A DNA stretch of 52,505 nucleotides from an uncultured Spirochaetaceae bacterium. GTDB taxonomy: Bacteria; Spirochaetota; Spirochaetia; Sphaerochaetales; Sphaerochaetaceae. Below are positions 30,325 to 43,852 of the stretch, one piece after another. A program made the position numbers and the translations under genes. Below the pieces are notes generated by a model that saw only the letters and a program-made list of their open reading frames with translations, ran no database searches and had not been told where the DNA came from. The stretch lies in contig CALXKJ010000017.1 in assembly GCA_944388955.1 (NCBI GenBank), forward strand, positions 1-52,505, read 5' to 3'. How positions within the stretch are numbered: the stretch's first letter is position 1; every line of letters starts with the position of its first letter.

Positions 30325-31338
30325 TCAGAATTCAGTCAGAAGCTCTGGATCCAGAGAGACGCTGTTCTGCTCCAGTGAGAAAAGCAGAGATGGCTCTGAG
30401 AATACACTGCTTGTACCTATCGAGCCGATAACCTCCCCTCTTGAGATATTCATACCTACATTTATACCGCTGACTACAGTCTCAAGGGAGGAGTAGACTG
30501 TCACATAGCCATCAGCATGCAATATCTTTATCGTGCGTCCAAGCTCTCTGTCGAATGATTTATCTATGACACGCCCATCAGCGGCAGCATGCACAGCGCT
30601 TCCTGGTTCAGAAGCAATCAGGACACCCGGGATGAGAATCCCATTATAGTATTCCTTGTAATGCGCAACGACCCTGCCTTCAGGAATCGGAGATGAGAAT
30701 GTCCTGGAGACAGGACGCTCAAGAGCCCCGGGATTGGGGACAAATACCTTCTTTCCTACAGTTACAGATGTGTCAGCATAACCATTTATAGCCGCTAAAT
30801 CCGCTGCAGAAAGCTCAGGATTACGCTTCCTGACAATAGATAGAAGCGTATCGCCTTCTTCAACTGTAACGAGTATACCGTTCACATCAGGAATCCGGAG
30901 TTCTGTACCCGGGACTATTTCTGTATCGGTAAGCTCGTTCACACTTGCGATTGTCTCTTTATCAATACCGTGCTTTTCAGCTATTGACTGGAGCGTATCG
31001 CCTTCAGCAACAGTGTAAGCAGTATACTGTACCGGAGAGAAATCAGAGGAAGCCTTTTCAATAATCGGCTTAGCTTCAATATATTCCCTTGGCTGTGTCT
31101 CTGCCTTCTCTGTCAGCTGGAGAACCTCCGGGCTCTGTACTTCGATGCTCCTTGCATCGTCAGCAGAAACATCCGCTGTATTCCCGTCTGCCGGTGTATT
31201 GAAAAGAAGATAGAGAACAATTGCCAGCATCGTTATGATGATACCAATCAGGGCGATGACAAGAGTCATCCTGCTTGTAGATCCTTTCCTTTCCCTGTAC
31301 CCTTCCGGTGGCATATCATCATAGCTGTATCGGCCCAT
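30325..31338 (-). CDS. LysM and degenerate LytM (M23-like) domain protein, EnvC/NlpD-like
   Basis: From the ATG at 31338 (GAGG 11 bases upstream; another ATG at 31377 is possible) the protein has 337 residues. An N-terminal transmembrane anchor (about 24-47) is followed by two LysM peptidoglycan-binding modules (YTVAEGDTLQSIAEKHGI and VTVEEGDTLLSIVRKR). A C-terminal M23 fold follows (PGSAVHAAADGRVI, then GYVTVYSSLETV, GEVIGSIGTS, LLFSLEQN). The zinc ligands of active M23 peptidases are missing: HxGxD is NGILIPG, the YAHL histidine is serine, and HLHFE is SLLFSLE. So it should act as a non-enzymatic regulator, like EnvC or NlpD activating amidases at division. Confidence 0.88.
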   Translation of the reverse strand: MGRYSYDDMPPEGYRERKGSTSRMTLVIALIGIIITMLAIVLYLLFNTPADGNTADVSADDARSIEVQSPEVLQLTEKAETQPREYIEAKPIIEKASSDFSPVQYTAYTVAEGDTLQSIAEKHGIDKETIASVNELTDTEIVPGTELRIPDVNGILVTVEEGDTLLSIVRKRNPELSAADLAAINGYADTSVTVGKKVFVPNPGALERPVSRTFSSPIPEGRVVAHYKEYYNGILIPGVLIASEPGSAVHAAADGRVIDKSFDRELGRTIKILHADGYVTVYSSLETVVSGINVGMNISRGEVIGSIGTSSVFSEPSLLFSLEQNSVSLDPELLTEF

Positions 31339-31341
31339 ATA

Positions 31342-31370
31342 TCGACAATCCTCGTGACTCATTCTATTAT
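31342..31370 (+). promoter_or_regulatory. Promoter of the FtsI-like gene, leaderless arrangement
   Basis: TCGACA (five of six consensus bases), a 17-base spacer and TATTAT are followed by the ATG at 31378, seven bases after the -10 box. The promoter lies within the start of the divergent LysM gene. No Shine-Dalgarno is present, so the mRNA may be leaderless. Confidence 0.6.
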
Positions 31371-31377
31371 TTTCCAT

Positions 31378-32259
31378 ATGGAAGAAAATGGCAATAAGGG
31401 AGATTCAAGGCTTGCTTTCATCTTTTTAGTCATCATAACGCTCATAACAGCGGCATGCATTATACTCTCTTCATCAGGATTCTTCTCCGACCGCCCGATA
31501 TACAGGGATCCTGAATTATCACTATCATTGGTCAGAGGAAGTATCCTTGACAGGAATGGCGGCTACCTTGCAATCCAAGCCCCTGATTTCGGCTTTGAGA
31601 TCCATATCAATGATTCTTCTCCAGCAGAGGCTGCGCATTTCATTTCACAATGGAGCGATGAGAATGCGATATCAATAGAAGAGAAAATCTCACGAGGTGA
31701 GAAATTCATTCCAATCACCATTATCCCATCTTCAATCGAAAGGGAAGAAATCATCAGAAGCTTAAGTGAGATGAATCTTTCCGATGACATCACCCCGAAT
31801 TCAATAGAAAAGAGGAAATATCCTCTTGGACAGCATGCCGTCAATATCGTGGGAATCACCAACAGGTGGCTTGATGGGGTTTCCGGTCTTGAGCGCCTTT
31901 ACAACAAGCCGTTATCACCGATTCCATCGATCTACAGCGTAATCGCGACAGGCAAAGACCTGCACACGACAATTGATCCGATGCTTCAGTACAGGCTATC
32001 CGATGAGGATGCACGCGCTGCTATCCTTTCTCCAGAAAAGGAAATACTGGCATATACCGGCTATGCGGATGACACTATCCTGTCAGCAATATGCAGGGAC
32101 ACGGATGCAGAAGGAGCGCTCAAAGCATCATCACTTAAGCCAATAGAGATAGATAATGGATACATCCTCTACACAGAAGATGAATCCATCCTTCCATTTG
32201 TTATCTCCATCCTTGAGGAAGAAGGCTTTGTATCTACTCAAGTGATACCTGAGCCCTGA
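31378..32259 (+). CDS. FtsI/PBP2-like pedestal protein lacking the transpeptidase domain
   Basis: The 293-residue protein has one transmembrane helix (12-33), then the class B PBP pedestal signature: RGSILDRNGGYLA (53-65), EKRKYPLGQHAVNIVGIT (144-161), DGVSGLERLYNKPL (166-179), and the linker TTIDPMLQ (197-204) that normally joins the pedestal to the transpeptidase. The next ~90 residues hold an AILSPEKEILAYTGYA stretch that matches the first transpeptidase strand, and the protein then stops. The SxxK, SxN and KTG motifs are absent. Normal FtsI has 550-600 residues. The stop overlaps flhF convergently by 26 bases, so no space for the lost domain remains. It probably cannot cross-link; it might still activate or scaffold FtsW. 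Confidence 0.9.
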   Translation: MEENGNKGDSRLAFIFLVIITLITAACIILSSSGFFSDRPIYRDPELSLSLVRGSILDRNGGYLAIQAPDFGFEIHINDSSPAEAAHFISQWSDENAISIEEKISRGEKFIPITIIPSSIEREEIIRSLSEMNLSDDITPNSIEKRKYPLGQHAVNIVGITNRWLDGVSGLERLYNKPLSPIPSIYSVIATGKDLHTTIDPMLQYRLSDEDARAAILSPEKEILAYTGYADDTILSAICRDTDAEGALKASSLKPIEIDNGYILYTEDESILPFVISILEEEGFVSTQVIPEP

Positions 32260-36146: not shown

Positions 36147-36848
36147 TCAACGAACAATGGCCGCGTCATACTCCTTCCCCATGAATGAATACCTGCCGCG
36201 TACAGTCTCAAAGACAACTGCAGAAGGATTCTCAAAAAGCGATGAGAATGATGAGACTGCACGGCATCCTGACAGGAATAAATCCCTTCCCATTCTATTC
36301 TCAAGCGATGAGCGGAGAATCGCTGCCTCCTTCCCGTCATCAAGAAGCATCGAAACCTCTTTCTCCGCCCCTCTTCCAGTTGCCAGAAGCGCTGACGACG
36401 CAAGACGGCATGAAAGCTCTCTCGCACCCTGTATATCCTTTCCTGAAAGCACTGTGCTTATAACGCTACCGCCTGTCAGAAGAATGCGTATCATACGTTT
36501 TCGATACCTTTCCCTGTAGCCTTCTATACCGATAGCGGAAACAAGATGAACTCGCCCTCCTCCATCTTCAGCCCCCTGTATCACTGAAGTCATGCCATAC
36601 GTATCAGCTTCTGTCAGCACATCATATCCCATAAGGGATGCTTCAAGAGCTGAAATGTACATCTCCTCATGCTGTCTTGTCGCTGATGATGAAAATGATG
36701 CAAGAAGGACATTCTTCTCATATGGAAGATTGCCCATATAAAGAACAGGGATGCCATCTATCAACGATAGCATGACACCTTCATCGAGGGCTCTTCTGAT
36801 TTCACTTCTCAATTAAGCGCTGAATAGCATAACCAGGCTTCTATCCAT
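36147..36848 (-). pseudogene. DprA/Smf-like gene with early in-frame stop
   Basis: The visible body (36147-36812, 221 codons) has the DprA Rossmann order in weakened form: GIPVLYMGN, a VLLASFSSSATRQHEE strand, LMGYDVLTEADTYGM, and a late GGSVISTVLSGKDIQGAREL and LATGRG. Key signature residues such as the GSR and RNR motifs are missing and the N-terminal SAM domain is lost. A good start exists at 36848 (GAGGAG then ATG), in the same frame, but its twelfth codon is TAA (36813-36815). A restart at TTG 36812 or ATG 36773 is possible. DprA loads RecA on incoming DNA. Its position between two xer genes matches smf in other spirochaetes. Probably decaying. Confidence 0.62.
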
Positions 36849-36913: not shown

Positions 36914-37867
36914 TTATTCCATATTATCTTTTGTATCATCTTCATCCCAATTCTCTACAGGTGAGAATTTATCGAAGAATGATAGAAGCGATGAAGTATC
37001 AAGGTGGGTATATATCTGGGTTGTCCGTACATCACTATGCCCGAGCATCTCCTGAACAGAGCGCACATCCGCACCTCTGACAATCATATGGGATGCAAAT
37101 GAATGGCGAAGCGTATGGATAGTAGCGTCAATGCCTATCCTTTCCACTGTCTCATGAAAGCGCTTATGCGCCGCCTGCCGTGTAAGCCGTCCACCACGTC
37201 TGTTGAGAAACAGAGCTTTTTCCTTTGGATTCTTCAGAAGCTGGGGACGGACAATAGAGATATATCTATCCAATGCGGAACGGGCATTCTCACCTATGAA
37301 TACAAAACGCTCCTTATCTCTTTTCCCTATTACTGCTATGGAGCCTTCATCTTCTTTGTACGATGAAACATCGAGAGCTACAGCCTCAGAGATTCTCATG
37401 CCTGATGAGTAAATAAGCTCAAAGAGCGTGTAATCGCGGAAGGAAAGGACGTCATCCTCCGGAAATGAAGCAAAAAGCCTGTCAACCTCCTCCTCGCTTA
37501 TGACGCGAGGCAGGTGCTCCCTTTCCTTCGGTTTCTCAACAAGCGCTGCGGGATTGACATCTTCTGTACCGACATAGCTGATGAATGTATAGAAAGCTCT
37601 GAGGGATGAAAGTATCCTTCCCTCGGTACGCTCATCAACTCCATCGTTTTCCCTTCTGTATATAAGGTATTCCTCTATAACAGCCGGTGTCGCCTCTTCC
37701 ACGCTAATGTTTTTCTCCCCAAGAAAATGAAGGAAGAGAACTGCTTCGCGAGAATAAACCTCCCGGGTTTTATCCGAGAGGCGTTTCTGGTAGGTTATAT
37801 ACCTTCTGAACGAGAGGACAAATTCTCTATCAGCTGCTGATAGCTCATTTATCTTCATCTTCGTCAT
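36914..37867 (-). CDS. Tyrosine recombinase XerC/D family, copy 2
   Basis: The 317-residue protein has an N-terminal core-binding domain ([19 protein letters not shown]) and a catalytic domain with [12 protein letters not shown] (Arg), [12 protein letters not shown] (Lys), [11 protein letters not shown] (His-x-x-Arg), and [16 protein letters not shown] (His, Tyr). It is a second, clearly different Xer-family recombinase, so with the copy at 35.2 kb it may form the XerC/XerD pair. The start overlaps the ftsZ end by 23 bases. No dif site is claimed in this window. Confidence 0.94.
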
Positions 37868-39101
37868 TTCTCGAGTATCTCAGCACAGCCGGAATTGAAT
37901 AATCATTCGGCGCCGCATTGCGCTTTCCAAGCTGCTGCTGGAGATCCTGCCACCTGTTGACTGTTATCGTTGCTGGATCAGAAGAGTCATTACGCTGTAC
38001 GCGCGGCTTCGGCTCCTCCTGAGGAGCGGCCTCTGGCTCCGCGCTGGGCCGGCTGCTGCGGGATTCCTCGAACCTCTTCCTGAAGACATCTGCTTCTGGA
38101 TCGAGAGTCATAGATGCATCACGCTGCTCAAAGCCCGTTGCGATGACTGTGACCTTGATTCTATCGCCAAGATTCTGGTTGTAGCTCTGACCGGCGATGA
38201 TGAGGGCATCATCTGCACAGCTTTCCGTGATGACTTCAACCACATCCTGATACTCCTGAAGAGTAAGGTTATCGCCACCAGCGAGATTGACAAGAACGGA
38301 CTTGGCACCATCGATTGAAGCATTCTCGAGAAGTGGATTGGAAATAGCGAGCTTAGCGGCGTCGATTGCCCTATTTGCACCCTCTCCGAATCCAAGACCT
38401 ATAAGCGCGTCGCCTTTGCCCTTCATGACAGTCTTCACATCTGCAAAGTCAATGTTGATCTCACCTGGCTCGGTTATGAGATCTGAAATACCCTGTACAG
38501 CCTGCAACAGCGCGCTGTCAGCAATAAGGAAAGCCTGCTTGATTGGGGTATTTGCCTCAACGACCTTCAGAAGGTGCTGGTTAGGAATCAGAATCAGTGT
38601 ATCGACCTGTTTTCTCAGTCTCTCGATTCCCTGCTCTGCAAGAAGGAGCTTCTTCTTTCCTTCAAACGCGAATGGCGTTGTCACGACAGCGACTGTAAGA
38701 GCGCCAAGGCCCTTGGCTATCTCAGCAACTACAGCAGCAGCTCCCGTGCCTGTACCACCGCCCATTCCAGCGGTAATGAAGACCATATCGGAATTCTCAA
38801 GCTCAGCCTTGATCTCCTCCTTGGATTCAAGAGCAGCCTTCTCGCCTATTTCAGGAACACCTCCTGCACCAAGACCGCCTGTAAGCTCCTTTCCGATAGC
38901 AATTCGCGTCTCTGCGTTAGAGCGCTGGAGAGCCTGAACATCTGTGTTCAGTGCCACGAACGAAACCTTCTTGAGACCGGAAGCAATCATCCTATTGACC
39001 GCATTGCCACCGCCTCCGCCGACGCCGACTACTTTGATGATTGTCGGAGCCGCGTCGCCTCCAGATGTTGCATCCTCGATATCGAACATATCAAAATCCA
39101 T
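37845..39101 (-). CDS. ftsZ: Cell division protein FtsZ
   Basis: The 418-residue tubulin homologue forms the Z ring. It carries the N-terminal [15 protein letters not shown], the tubulin signature GGGTGTGAA and the T7-type catalytic loop region near [12 protein letters not shown] Pro/Glu-rich linker leads to a C-terminal peptide SIPAVLRYS that should bind FtsA. ATG at 39101 is preferred over a GTG at 39107 because the GAGGGA ribosome site then has correct spacing. It follows ftsA by 10 bases. Intact and expected to be functional although FtsW/FtsI-type partners look inactive. Confidence 0.98.
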
Positions 39102-39111
39102 CGTCACTCCC

Positions 39112-40344
39112 TCAGAACAGCTTACTGAAAAGGCTCTTAACCTTGCCGCCGAATCCGTTCTTCTCCTGACTTCCCCCCTGAGTGGAAGAAGTATCCTTAT
39201 ATTTCTTAGCCTCTATCTTAAGCAATCCGAGAAGAGTTGAATATCTCGGATCGATATATAGACGATCTAGACCGCTGATAGCCTCCGGGAATCCTATCCT
39301 TGCCGGCATCCTGAAAATCTCAGCAGCGAGCTCCGTCGCCCCGGAAAGCAGCGCTCCGCCTCCGACAAGAATGACACCAGCACCGAAAGAGCCGGAAACC
39401 TCATGCTTCTCAAGCTCAGATGAAAGCATACTGAAAATCTCGGCCATTCTTGGCTCGATGAGTTTCGCCAGCTCTTTCCTTGGAAGCCTGATTGATGGCT
39501 TTCCACCCACCGCAGGAGTGATGATCATATCATCATTCCTCACAGAAGGCGTATGGCATGAGCCATCAGTTATCTTCATCGATTCAGCCGCAGAGCGTGG
39601 AAGCTGAAGCATGTACGCAATATCCCCGGTAACATTATCACCGCCAAGGGAAATGCCTCCGGTATATACAGGAGCACCTCCAAGATAAGCAATGCAGTCG
39701 GTCTTTCCTGAGCCAATATCAATGACAATGGCCCCCATCTCCTTCTCATCGCTGCCAAGCACGACTTCACTGTCCGCGAGCGACTGCAATACCATTCTCT
39801 GAACCGACAGTCCCGATTTCTGAACGCACTTCCTGAGATTCTGGCATATCGAAGCGGAGCCAGTAACAAGAAGAACACGCGTATCAAGACGATGACCAAG
39901 CATATCTATCGGATCCTTGATGCCAGAGCGTGAATCAACCTGGAAATCCTGCACAAGGGTGTGGAGAATCTCTGTATCCTGCGGCAAATCACGAGCACGC
40001 GCGACATCGATAGAGCGTCTTATATCCTCGCGCTTTATTTCCTGATCCCTGCTCTGTATACCAACAACGCCGCTTGACTGTATTCCTGATATATGATCAC
40101 CACCGACACCGAGTATGACAGAGGAGACTTCCGCGCCAGCCTGTATCTCTGCATCAGAGATAACTGAGCTGATAGCCTTAAGCGTCTGCTCGATATTGAC
40201 GATAGAGCCGGATCTGACGCCTTCGCTTGGACGCTCAGAAATGGATTCAATCATCAGCTGCCCATCGCGGGAAACTGAGCCGATTGCACATCTTATCCAT
40301 CCAGTACCTATATCCAATCCGACAAGAGTCTTATCAGAAGCCAT
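39112..40344 (-). CDS. ftsA: Cell division protein FtsA
   Basis: The 410-residue actin-like protein tethers FtsZ to the membrane. It begins with the ASKHA phosphate motif [14 protein letters not shown], has the 1C subdomain SHS2-type region, a second phosphate loop [10 protein letters not shown], and an adenosine motif VGGGALLSG. It ends with an amphipathic helix, [15 protein letters not shown] precedes the ATG. It sits between ftsQ and ftsZ as in other bacteria, with 11 and 10 base gaps. It looks intact, with no truncation. Confidence 0.97.
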
Positions 40345-40355
40345 CTTTTAATCCC

Positions 40356-41063
40356 CTAAAGCCTTACAAGCCTATCGCTGTAAAGAGCGTACTCAGAAAA
40401 ATGCGGATTGAGTCCGCGTTTCTCATTCCTGATTACATCTATAGAATAAGCAATATTCGATGCGCTTACAGCTTCCCTGATGCGTATTCCAGCATTGAGA
40501 GAGGAAAGCACTAAAGCCAGGCTTGCACTGCCATCATTATTATTGACAGATTCAATAATATCTATCAAGTCACGGTGTTCTTCATCAAGCTCTCTGAGAG
40601 CAGCAAGGACAGAGAGCGCTGCACTATCAAAACCGCCAGAAGGGAAATCCTCTCCTGAAGGTGAATATATCACAGGGAAAAAGCTCTGGAGCGCTTCAAG
40701 GTCCCTTATGTCAGCATCAATTACGCTATCTTTGGATATGAAAGAAAGCTTTCCATCTGATAAATAGAGAAAACCGTCCTCCGCGACTGTCTCAAGCTGA
40801 AGAACGCCCTTATTGTAAGTAATGGATGCGTCAGAAATATACGGGAGTTTTCTGGCATCGCTTACGACTCCTGTCAAATCAAGAGACGGGAAATATCTGT
40901 TCTTCAAAGGCAGGATAATCTTTTCAATCGATGGTGTTGAAATACCAACAGCCTGAACATCCTTCACAGGAAAGAGAGGAAGATATCTGAATGAAAGGAA
41001 GAGAACCATGATAATAAACACCGACGCCCCGAGAGCTATCGACGCGCGTTCACTTCTTCGCAT
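40356..41063 (-). CDS. ftsQ: FtsQ/DivIB-like division protein
   Basis: The 235-residue protein has one N-terminal membrane helix (about 11-27), then a POTRA-like start (VKDVQAVGISTPSIEKIILPL) and a beta-rich domain with a DGKLSFISKDSVID strand. Sequence conservation is low but position between ftsW and ftsA and topology fit FtsQ/DivIB, which links the Z ring to FtsL-FtsB and FtsWI. The ATG has GGAGGTG upstream and overlaps ftsW by 14 bases. Assignment rests mainly on synteny. Confidence 0.82.
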   Translation of the reverse strand: MRRSERASIALGASVFIIMVLFLSFRYLPLFPVKDVQAVGISTPSIEKIILPLKNRYFPSLDLTGVVSDARKLPYISDASITYNKGVLQLETVAEDGFLYLSDGKLSFISKDSVIDADIRDLEALQSFFPVIYSPSGEDFPSGGFDSAALSVLAALRELDEEHRDLIDIIESVNNNDGSASLALVLSSLNAGIRIREAVSASNIAYSIDVIRNEKRGLNPHFSEYALYSDRLVRL

Positions 41064-42216
41064 CTTTCACCTCCCTTCCGGACGCATAGATGAACCTGTA
41101 CAGCAGGACAGCTGAGAATACCGTCAGCCCCTCCTCCCAGATATCATAGCTGAAGAATGGCATGGAAATTCCGGGGAAAGGAAGGATTCCCATGCAATAG
41201 AGCATATTCATATAGGCCCTGAAGACAATATAGAAGCTGAGTCCTATGGCAATAACAGCTGAATCTGCTTCACCTTTTCTTCTGAGCCTTCTGCTGCTTC
41301 TGTAGCCAAGTATCCCGATAAGAAAGAAGAGAATAAGCACAAATAGCATTCCAGTCATGCCTGTTTCCTCTGCAAGAGAGGAGAAGATGAACATTCTCTC
41401 TGGAGATGGAAGCGTGCCTAGCTTGTAAATACCTTTCCCAAGGCCAGCGCCGGAGATTCCACCATCTGCTATCGCGCTTCTTGAAGCTACAAGCGCCTGA
41501 TTATAGAAAGAGGCATCTGATACAGGCATTATCGATTCAAATACGGGAGCAAGGAAATCAGGATAGATAAACGAAATGCCGCACAGTACCGCAATTGAAA
41601 AGAGAAATGCGAGTATCAATGCGACAATACTGACGCCTTTTACCCTCAGCAGTATGATTGTCAGGATAACGCCAAGGATATACCACCCGATTCCGCCTGA
41701 AAAAAGCATCAGCGTAAGATATATGACAATAACAGCAGATGGTAAGAAATATGATCCCCTTTTCTCCCTTGATGGGAAAAGCGCGGAGATGATGAGAATA
41801 AGGGAGAACATCGCGAAAGAAGGCGCTGAAAAGAGCTGGATTCCTCCTATCACGAGATGGAAGTCACCTTCAAATACCGGAATTGACTGGAGCACAAGAG
41901 CGATAAGCGAAAGAGGCATGAAGATGAGATATAGCTTCTTTATTCTTCTCATTCCGAGAAAGCGAGTTGCTATTCCCAGGAGAAGACCTGCAACCCCCGC
42001 ATATAGATTCCTGACGAAATACCAGTAATGAGCAAGTCCGTTGGAGAGCGCTTCTGAATATGATGACGAATATAGTATGACAAGACCATATAACGCAGTA
42101 ATGAGCGCAATGCACAGATATGTGAATGGAGAAAGGGAACCTGATGTCTCTTTCTCCTTCTGCTGTTCTTCTATCAATAACAGATCATCGTAAGTACTGG
42201 ATCCTGTCGACGGCAT
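41050..42216 (-). CDS. FtsW/RodA (SEDS)-family membrane protein with missing catalytic residues
   Basis: The 388-residue, ten-helix-type protein aligns with FtsW over the conserved loop: GAGLGKGIYKLGTLP (256-270), then SPERMFIFSSLAEETG where FtsW has EAHTDFIFAxxGEELG. The polymerase-essential Asp (E. coli D297) is therefore Met275. The first periplasmic motif W-I-x-L-G-xx-x-Q-P-x-E-xx-K is replaced by VIGGIQLFSAPSFAMF, and PDLGT is not found. GILPFPGISMPFFSYD still matches the C-terminal GLPLPFISYG region. It keeps the fold but probably not lipid II polymerisation. It lies in the ftsW position between ftsL and ftsQ. Confidence 0.87.
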   Translation of the reverse strand: MPSTGSSTYDDLLLIEEQQKEKETSGSLSPFTYLCIALITALYGLVILYSSSYSEALSNGLAHYWYFVRNLYAGVAGLLLGIATRFLGMRRIKKLYLIFMPLSLIALVLQSIPVFEGDFHLVIGGIQLFSAPSFAMFSLILIISALFPSREKRGSYFLPSAVIVIYLTLMLFSGGIGWYILGVILTIILLRVKGVSIVALILAFLFSIAVLCGISFIYPDFLAPVFESIMPVSDASFYNQALVASRSAIADGGISGAGLGKGIYKLGTLPSPERMFIFSSLAEETGMTGMLFVLILFFLIGILGYRSSRRLRRKGEADSAVIAIGLSFYIVFRAYMNMLYCMGILPFPGISMPFFSYDIWEEGLTVFSAVLLYRFIYASGREVKDAKK

Positions 42217-42222
42217 ACTTCA

Positions 42223-42501
42223 TTATACCACAGGATACTGATTCTGATAGCCACTTGAAGCACTGACAAGGAATTCCTCATCTGCTGTCATGCCAGCCGC
42301 GATAGCTGCCTTAAGCGCACGTCCTTCCGCCTCCATGTCAACGACAGACGAATCCATATGCGCAATCTCATATGACAAGGAGCTTGATGAGCCAATCTGC
42401 CAGAGAGGAATGAGAAGAACAATGAATGCAAGGACAAGCATTACAACAATCAACCCTTTTACTGGTCTGGAAATATTCCTGAAAACCTCGAAATCATTCA
42501 T
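42223..42501 (-). CDS. ftsL: FtsL-like small division protein
   Basis: The 92-residue bitopic protein has a short cytoplasmic start, one transmembrane helix (about 17-34) and a ~60-residue periplasmic part with a coiled-coil-like first half, the FtsL layout. FtsL sequences are poorly conserved, so this assignment rests on size, topology and its place between rsmH and ftsW. A GAGGT site precedes the ATG. The usual ftsI/murE/murF/mraY genes that follow ftsL in many bacteria are missing here. Confidence 0.75.
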   Translation of the reverse strand: MNDFEVFRNISRPVKGLIVVMLVLAFIVLLIPLWQIGSSSSLSYEIAHMDSSVVDMEAEGRALKAAIAAGMTADEEFLVSASSGYQNQYPVV

Positions 42502-42512
42502 CTTGATACCTC

Positions 42513-43400
42513 TTATATTCTCTCCACCACTCTGAGCTTCGCGCTCCGCGATGGTGGATTTTCTTTCTCTTCTTCTTCCGATGGGATTATCGGTTTTTTA
42601 GTGAGAATCCTTATCCTCGGATTCTCCTTTCCCGCCTCATCCTTGAAGAACCATTTGACCTTCCTATCCTCAAGCGAATGGAATGTTATGACAGCAATCC
42701 TTCCACCTTTCTTCAGAACCCTGATCGCGTTCTCAAGTGACGGTGTAATGCGGTCAAGCTCCTTATTCACTTCTATGCGGAGCGCCTGGAAAGTACGTGT
42801 TGCAGGATGAATACGTCCATACCTGTACTCTTTCGGCACAGAAGCTTTTATGATATCCGCGAGTTGCGACGAAGTCTCAATAGCGCCCTCTTCTCTCTTC
42901 TCAGCAATCGCTCTCGCAATCCTTCTTGAATAACGCTCTTCCCCATACTTGTATATGACATCTGCAAGGCTTTCCTCACTATAGCCATTCACGATGTCCG
43001 CAGCGCTGAGACCAGTACTGTTATTGAGTCTCATATCAAGGGGCTCATCATTCCTGAACGAAAAACCTCTGTCACTCTCCACGTAATGGAACATCGAAAT
43101 ACCGAGATCGAAAAGAATTGCATCCGCCGTTTCGGATGGAGCATTCTCAAGATAATCATCAAACCATGCATTTACAGGCTGAAAACGCTCTTTGAAAACG
43201 CTCAGACGCTCTATCGCTTTCTTCTGTATCTCCGAGTCACGGTCTATACCCATAACGCGAAGTGATGGATATCTAGATAGAAAAAGAGAGGTATGCCCTC
43301 CTTCTCCGGTGGTGCAGTCAATCATCAGTGAATCTCCCTCAGGGATTGGGAGATTCTCCAACACTTCCTTATGCATCACCGGGTAGTGGACTATTTCCAT
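42513..43400 (-). CDS. rsmH: 16S rRNA m4C1402 methyltransferase RsmH
   Basis: RsmH (MraW) N4-methylates C1402 of 16S rRNA using SAM. The 295-residue protein begins HYPVMHKEVLENL, has the SAM-binding IDCTTGEGGHT region and the DAILFDLGIS and RGFSFRNDEPLDMR signatures, then the C-terminal VITFHSLEDRKVKWFF. The ATG at 43400 overlaps the mraZ stop (TGATG). Complete and ordinary. Confidence 0.97.
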   Translation of the reverse strand: MEIVHYPVMHKEVLENLPIPEGDSLMIDCTTGEGGHTSLFLSRYPSLRVMGIDRDSEIQKKAIERLSVFKERFQPVNAWFDDYLENAPSETADAILFDLGISMFHYVESDRGFSFRNDEPLDMRLNNSTGLSAADIVNGYSEESLADVIYKYGEERYSRRIARAIAEKREEGAIETSSQLADIIKASVPKEYRYGRIHPATRTFQALRIEVNKELDRITPSLENAIRVLKKGGRIAVITFHSLEDRKVKWFFKDEAGKENPRIRILTKKPIIPSEEEEKENPPSRSAKLRVVERI

Positions 43401-43852
43401 CACTCTTTCTCCTCGAATAGCTGCTGTGCAAGATCCGATATGCTTTCACCGTTATCACTGGATGCGAACACATCAGGATTCCAGAGCTCTACTGTATATC
43501 CTGTTCCGACAAGAAGAGCTTCCGACTTATTCGGAAGGCTGTACTTATCGCGTATCTGCGCTGGAATATTGATTCTTCCAGAACCATCGATATCAACATA
43601 GACGGCAGGAGAAATGAGCTTTCTGATAAGGATACGGTTTTTCTTATCGAGCATAGCCATTGGGGATGAGAGAATAGGCTCGGAAAAATCCTTTTCAAAA
43701 TACTCAGGTCTCATGATCATCAGGTGATTCTCATCAAGTCCTGGAAGAACAACAACCTGCTCGGTGGCCAGTGCGTTTCTTAGTCTTGCTGGCAGGGAAA
43801 GACGCCCTTTATCATCAATCCTTGCATTATACATTCCTGTAAGAAGCTGCAC
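43400..43852 (-). CDS. mraZ: Transcriptional regulator MraZ
   Basis: The 150-residue protein has two AbrB-like swapped-hairpin modules: YNARIDDKGRLSLPARLRNAL (about 8-28) and a second YVDIDGSGRINIPAQIRD region (about 85-102), both with the D-x-K/G-G-R-(L/I)-x-(L/I)-P motif. MraZ is a ring-forming DNA-binding protein that represses its own dcw operon. GTG at 43852 is the likely start, as family members begin about eight residues before the first module. Repeated 10-bp-spaced boxes just upstream fit autoregulation. Confidence 0.95.
   Translation of the reverse strand: MQLLTGMYNARIDDKGRLSLPARLRNALATEQVVVLPGLDENHLMIMRPEYFEKDFSEPILSSPMAMLDKKNRILIRKLISPAVYVDIDGSGRINIPAQIRDKYSLPNKSEALLVGTGYTVELWNPDVFASSDNGESISDLAQQLFEEKE

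Follow-up and report, generated by a model that had tools for sequence, protein, structure and literature searches.

The SEDS gene of the window and its division operon

The window, a stretch of 52,505 nucleotides, comes from the 2.1-Mb, 96% complete genome of a Candidatus Ornithospirochaeta (family Sphaerochaetaceae). Its closest match in genome collections was O. stercoravium (62% identical), and close relatives there carry the name Candidatus Ornithospirochaeta. The window contains an intact operon of the order mraZ-rsmH-ftsL-SEDS-ftsQ-ftsA-ftsZ (Table 1), in which the SEDS gene occupies the place of ftsW, between ftsL and ftsQ-ftsA-ftsZ. A first-pass annotation, made from the letters alone, had stated that both the frame and the operon position of this gene are preserved; the reverse-strand frame of 388 codons is indeed uninterrupted, and the operon around it is complete. 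The end of the SEDS frame shares 14 nt with that of ftsQ. The FtsL-like protein gave a weak match to the NCBIfam FtsL model (E=0.008) and lacks the C-terminal motif found in the FtsL of relatives. In walled relatives the genes are arranged as mraZ-rsmH-ftsL-murF-mraY-ftsW-ftsQ-ftsA-ftsZ-xer-xer. In the window, a 221-aa open frame with no Pfam match lies between the two xer recombinase genes (36147-36812, minus strand).

Table 1. Positions of the genes and sequence features in the window
Feature	Position	Strand	Remarks
LysM + LytM/M23-like protein beside the PBP stub	30325..31377	-	PF01476, PF01551
Class B PBP stub: TM helix and PBP_dimer pedestal, transpeptidase domain excised	31354..32259	+	PF03717 E=1.9e-7
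FtsZ	37845..39107	-	PF00091 E=1e-50, PF12327 E=7e-29
FtsA	39112..40344	-	PF14450 E=1e-35, PF02491 E=1e-23
FtsQ-like protein, 235 aa	40356..41063	-	profile homology to POTRA_1 (FtsQ-type) proteins of relatives
SEDS (FtsW-type) protein, active site lost	41050..42216	-	388 aa; PF01098 E=5e-34
Codon 275 (Met), site of the catalytic Asp (E. coli FtsW D297)	41392..41394	-	alignment
Glycine loop GGISGAGLGKGIYKLG, residues 252-267, ECL4 h2-loop region, retained	41416..41463	-	
Cytoplasmic N-terminal motif Y9-D10-D11	42184..42192	-	invariant in genus 1
6-bp junction of ftsL-like and SEDS genes, site of murF and mraY in walled relatives	42217..42222		gene order comparison
FtsL-like protein, 92 aa, TM and coiled coil	42223..42501	-	relatives have homologues in this position
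RsmH/MraW methyltransferase	42513..43403	-	PF01795 E=5e-108
MraZ	43400..43852	-	PF02381 E=1e-17

The SEDS protein matched PF01098 with 118 bits, against a curated cut-off of 26.4, and so belongs to this family. The best of all NCBIfam models was TIGR02614 (ftsW), which indicates FtsW rather than RodA, at a score of 138.7 bits that lies under the equivalog cut-off of 337.5. An AlphaFold2 model of the protein (pLDDT 87.5, pTM 0.88) was compared with the PDB using Foldseek, and the top fold match was FtsW of the FtsWIQLB complex (8p1u, E=2.5e-12, TM 0.78), with RodA as the next fold match; WaaL (7tpg) was the next structural match in the search. The SEDS fold is therefore intact, in line with the fold-level features recognized in the first pass, while the active site is not. 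A second, canonical FtsW or RodA, which the first-pass annotation had proposed to look for, was not found in the genome, which has this SEDS gene only.

The active site of the SEDS protein

In a phmmer alignment, the segment LPEAHTDFVFAVLAEELG of P. aeruginosa FtsW corresponds to LPSPERMFIFSSLAEETG in the window protein, and Met275 falls on the catalytic Asp, just as had been read from the sequence at first. The first-pass annotation had allowed for an Asp conserved at a shifted site; alignments with P. aeruginosa FtsW and with relatives show none, and this possibility was ruled out. It had also reported several further losses in the active site, and nine more residues that canonical proteins keep invariant are gone (E. 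coli FtsW numbering): R137>F, W138>H, Q147>S, P148>A, E150>S, K153>M, R246>P, E293>S and Q195>S, the last at the start of the QPDLGT motif. The protein thus has neither the catalytic Asp nor the polar cavity residues of an active glycosyltransferase, and destruction of the polymerase active site is strongly supported at the sequence level.

Absence of the peptidoglycan pathway

In the window's genome, no match was found to the PBP transpeptidase domain (PF00905), to MraY or to the YkuD L,D-transpeptidase, and no MurC-F set was detectable. MurA gave a weak match only, which we read as an AroA paralogue, and the Mur ligase middle domain gave one weak match (probably FolC) versus the usual five. 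The matches to MurJ were weak, partial and typical of MATE transporters, with no canonical MurJ among them. The same searches easily found the pathway genes in control genomes and in walled sister genera. Judged by its gene content, the organism makes no peptidoglycan.

The comparison set comprised 139 genomes from 22 genera across the order. In 13 genera the SEDS match is strong and is accompanied by one class B PBP, MraY, MurA and about five Mur ligase domains. The wall-less set was formed by seven genera (g1, g3, g4, g8, g14, g18 and g21), with 70 genomes including that of the window; PF00905, MraY and MurA above its cut-off were found in none of these genomes. These genomes have about one weak match to a Mur ligase domain instead of five, and MurJ only as weak MATE-like matches or a few degenerate copies. 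A divergent SEDS gene is kept in 68 of the 70, and the operon has the order of walled relatives minus murF and mraY and is otherwise intact. All of the genomes are assemblies, many of them from metagenomes, in which a single absence means little, but 70 agree. The SEDS profile search gave nothing in genus g22 and in G018 and G131, the latter two being incomplete assemblies. Genus g22 (G136-G138) also has no transpeptidase, MraY or above-cut-off MurA and only weak matches to the PBP pedestal, and possibly represents a further stage of loss.

One could suppose that the cells still make a wall, with a precursor that is either highly divergent or scavenged, and that the SEDS protein polymerizes it by an altered mechanism. 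The occurrence of Asp at the SEDS site and of a degenerate MurJ-like protein in some members of genus 1 would agree with this, but MurA, MraY, the MurC-F set and the transpeptidase domain were undetected in all 70 genomes by searches that worked on the controls, and the window's own genome has no L,D-transpeptidase. We consider such a wall very improbable.

In a tree of RsmH, FtsA and FtsZ, walled g2 was the neighbor of genus 1, and walled g7/g10 were the neighbors of the remaining wall-less genera. Forcing the wall-less genera into one clade cost 130 log-likelihood units (AU p=7.7e-5), in a set that includes two walled rows with long branches. A single loss of the wall pathway was rejected by the AU test under this three-gene tree. 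Because the test rejects the joining of the two wall-less clades, wall loss and the disarming of both proteins would, taken at face value, have happened at least twice.

An amputated class B PBP

The second of these proteins, overlooked in the first-pass annotation, is encoded elsewhere in the window, by a frame of 301 aa whose likely true start is the ATG at 31378. A pedestal follows one TM helix, as in class B PBPs, with no match to PF00905, and an alignment with full-length PBPs revealed no transpeptidase domain with SxxK, SxN and KTG. In walled relatives, the gene for the single class B PBP lies downstream of the xer genes and is read from the other strand; the stub is syntenic with it. 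Searched with a profile, 65 of the 70 genomes of the wall-less set proved to have the pedestal. In the aligned stubs the pedestal is mostly about 95% kept, the transpeptidase core 5-20%, and of the C-terminal end of the transpeptidase domain a variable part remains; the SxxK, SxN and KTG motifs are missing from every one of them at the corresponding alignment columns. In g18, g21, g4 and g14 one can still recognize the final strand and helix of the domain, which indicates that it was cut out internally. Pairwise dN/dS of the stubs was mostly 0.08-0.19, with two values near 0.3. Folded alone from its single sequence, the stub gave a pLDDT of 36, too low for the model to be used.

In E. coli models, the C-terminal region of the transpeptidase joins a beta-sheet with FtsL, FtsB and FtsQ (PMC10390529). 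FtsB/DivIC and the C-terminal motif of FtsL are kept in the second wall-less clade, and the C-terminal PBP remnant of g18, g21, g4 and g14 may be tied to their retention. In genus 1 the FtsL motif is lost and a search for FtsB/DivIC gave nothing clear; because FtsB/DivIC is not recognizable there, the canonical FtsQLB set may be incomplete in this genus.

The protein encoded beside the stub, with LysM and LytM/M23-like domains, is devoid of the metal-binding motif residues. Walled relatives lack these residues as well, so that the protein resembles the NlpD/EnvC type, which is non-catalytic.

What selection retains

The catalytic Asp is invariant in the 40 sequences from walled bacteria and in the two E. 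coli references. The 68 SEDS proteins of the wall-less genera have D in nine cases, all among the 48 proteins of genus 1, and any of 14 other residues (E, Q, K, R, M, L, I, V, T, S, A, P, Y, N) in the remaining 59. The relatives thus do not share Met275, a point that the first-pass annotation had left for checking. The 23 changes on the tree, with 15 residues, equal the median of all sites. In either clade, the polar cavity residues R137, W138, Q147, E150, K153 and R246 are 0-10% kept. A specific adaptive replacement by Met was rejected on account of the 15 different residues; the site is simply released from constraint and not specifically changed to Met.

A separate observation concerns seven genus-1 genomes (G035, G049, G054, G060, G065, G068 and G072) in which a MurJ-like protein is full-length but degenerate (E 1e-17 to 1e-22); in each of these genomes the Asp site of SEDS is occupied by D or E.

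Other positions hardly vary. G256, G258 and G260 of the glycine loop are kept in 48/48 genus-1 sequences, with 0-1 changes on the tree, and G256, G286 and E284 of the window protein likewise show 0-1 changes versus the 23 at the Asp site. In E. coli FtsW numbering, G274, G278, G280, G282, K287, E305, E306, G308, G311, P375, F376 and S378 are 78-100% kept in wall-less SEDS proteins. Window residue G260 is equivalent in the alignment to G260 of P. aeruginosa FtsW, through which ECL4 h2 contacts FtsL (PMC10764723). The N-terminal motif takes the form YDDW/FDDW in many walled relatives and YDDWNFMG in most of the second wall-less clade. Near-identical pairs being left out, pairwise dN/dS was 0.02-0.15 (median 0.09) for the dead SEDS proteins and 0.04-0.11 (median 0.06) for walled ones, values that are approximate (NG86 method, with dS saturated in some pairs). 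These comparisons strongly support purifying selection on both the dead SEDS protein and the PBP stub. The first-pass annotation had suggested a selected pseudoenzyme, and this idea is supported by the retention of homologues in 68 of 70 related genomes, by the dN/dS range, by the FtsW fold and by the complete absence of the substrate pathway.

The lost active site, the missing substrate pathway and the lack of any SEDS in g22 are also what slow pseudogenization would produce, with the gene a relic of the lost wall pathway awaiting deletion. Against such a relic, the frames are intact in nearly all of about 68 species in seven genera, structural positions are invariant beside a freely varying catalytic site, and retention is repeated in a second independent clade and for the unlinked PBP pedestal. 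A dN/dS near 0.09 largely refutes it; decay was rejected on dN/dS and retention, and we hold it to be highly unlikely. The overlap with ftsQ raises the further thought that the frame persists only for operon reasons, such as translational coupling, and that its protein is idle. Specific residues are under selection along the whole protein, and the PBP stub, at a separate place on the other strand, is kept as well, so that this explanation is extremely improbable. The fold common to SEDS proteins and WaaL would suit a neofunctionalized transferase that polymerizes or ligates another lipid-linked glycan, in the manner of the O-antigen ligase. No new set of conserved polar residues surrounds the old cavity, where positions differ among relatives and between clades, and the partner PBP is kept without any catalytic domain. 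With no newly conserved polar site to be seen, this explanation is unsupported, and we regard it as unlikely.

A proposed structural role in division

The window SEDS protein is best explained as the FtsW of a bacterium that has given up peptidoglycan synthesis. We propose that FtsW, pedestal-only FtsI, FtsL and FtsQ are probably retained as a non-catalytic complex, which would be the membrane scaffold for an FtsZ/FtsA divisome free of peptidoglycan. The four proteins would still assemble into a divisome core, held together by the transmembrane bundle of FtsW and its FtsL-facing glycine loop, and the conserved cytoplasmic YDD motif may tether this core to the FtsA/FtsZ ring. The complex would serve as a structural or signaling link by which the Z-ring could constrict the envelope without septal wall synthesis. 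This suggests that FtsW and FtsI have a building role in division that is independent of wall making. We lean, with somewhat less confidence, towards the broader reading of a natural divisome operating without peptidoglycan, in which a SEDS-bPBP pair without both activities forms a structural core that transmits force between the FtsZ/FtsA ring and the diderm envelope, and which evolved at least twice in one family. The loss of SEDS from detection in g22 implies that the scaffold role is not indispensable forever; this loss, the nine genus-1 proteins with Asp at the site and the unrecognizable FtsB/DivIC of that genus count against the scaffold proposal.

The window SEDS protein shares with FtsW of FtsWIQLB (P. 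aeruginosa 8p1u/8bh1; E. coli FtsW) the fold, the 10-TM topology, the dcw operon position and the FtsL-facing glycine loop of ECL4, but differs in lacking the catalytic Asp and the cavity residues, in a genome without lipid II synthesis genes; its partner FtsI, unlike that of the complex, has no transpeptidase domain. Similarly, the stub has the TM helix and PBP_dimer pedestal of class B PBPs (FtsI/SpoVD type) and synteny with those of walled relatives, but its transpeptidase domain is excised together with SxxK, SxN and KTG. The wall-less mycoplasmas have a reduced dcw cluster of mraZ, mraW, MG_223 and ftsZ, with no SEDS gene in it (PMC8475190). Deletion of wall genes and retention of mraZ, rsmH and ftsZ are common to both groups, whereas the spirochaete genomes also keep FtsW, FtsQ, FtsL, FtsA and a PBP stub. 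Searches of the open-access literature turned up no account of a SEDS pseudoenzyme and none of a wall-less Ornithospirochaeta.

The wall-less group consists of gut spirochaetes in which FtsW and FtsI of the division machine are disarmed. In dozens of species from two separate lineages, both proteins were kept after loss of the wall pathway and exactly their catalytic parts were removed, so that nature would have separated the structural role of the septal synthase from its enzymatic one. The pattern points to residues that matter for divisome assembly, and it is relevant to the unsettled question of what drives constriction, synthesis of the septal wall or the Z-ring complex.

One SEDS protein and one class B PBP, in the same gene order, are also found in other Sphaerochaetaceae and represent the ancestral state in the family; these bacteria differ in having MraY, Mur ligases and intact active sites. 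Sphaerochaeta coccoides has been noted for its single transpeptidase (PMC4423922). In two genomes of genus g2, G004 and G006, the sole class B PBP (L192, L193) is without SxxK, SxN and KTG, the lipid II genes and the SEDS Asp (SEDS genes in L030 and L026) are intact, and YkuD proteins number one in G006 and none detected in G004. These two genomes apparently represent an intermediate state.
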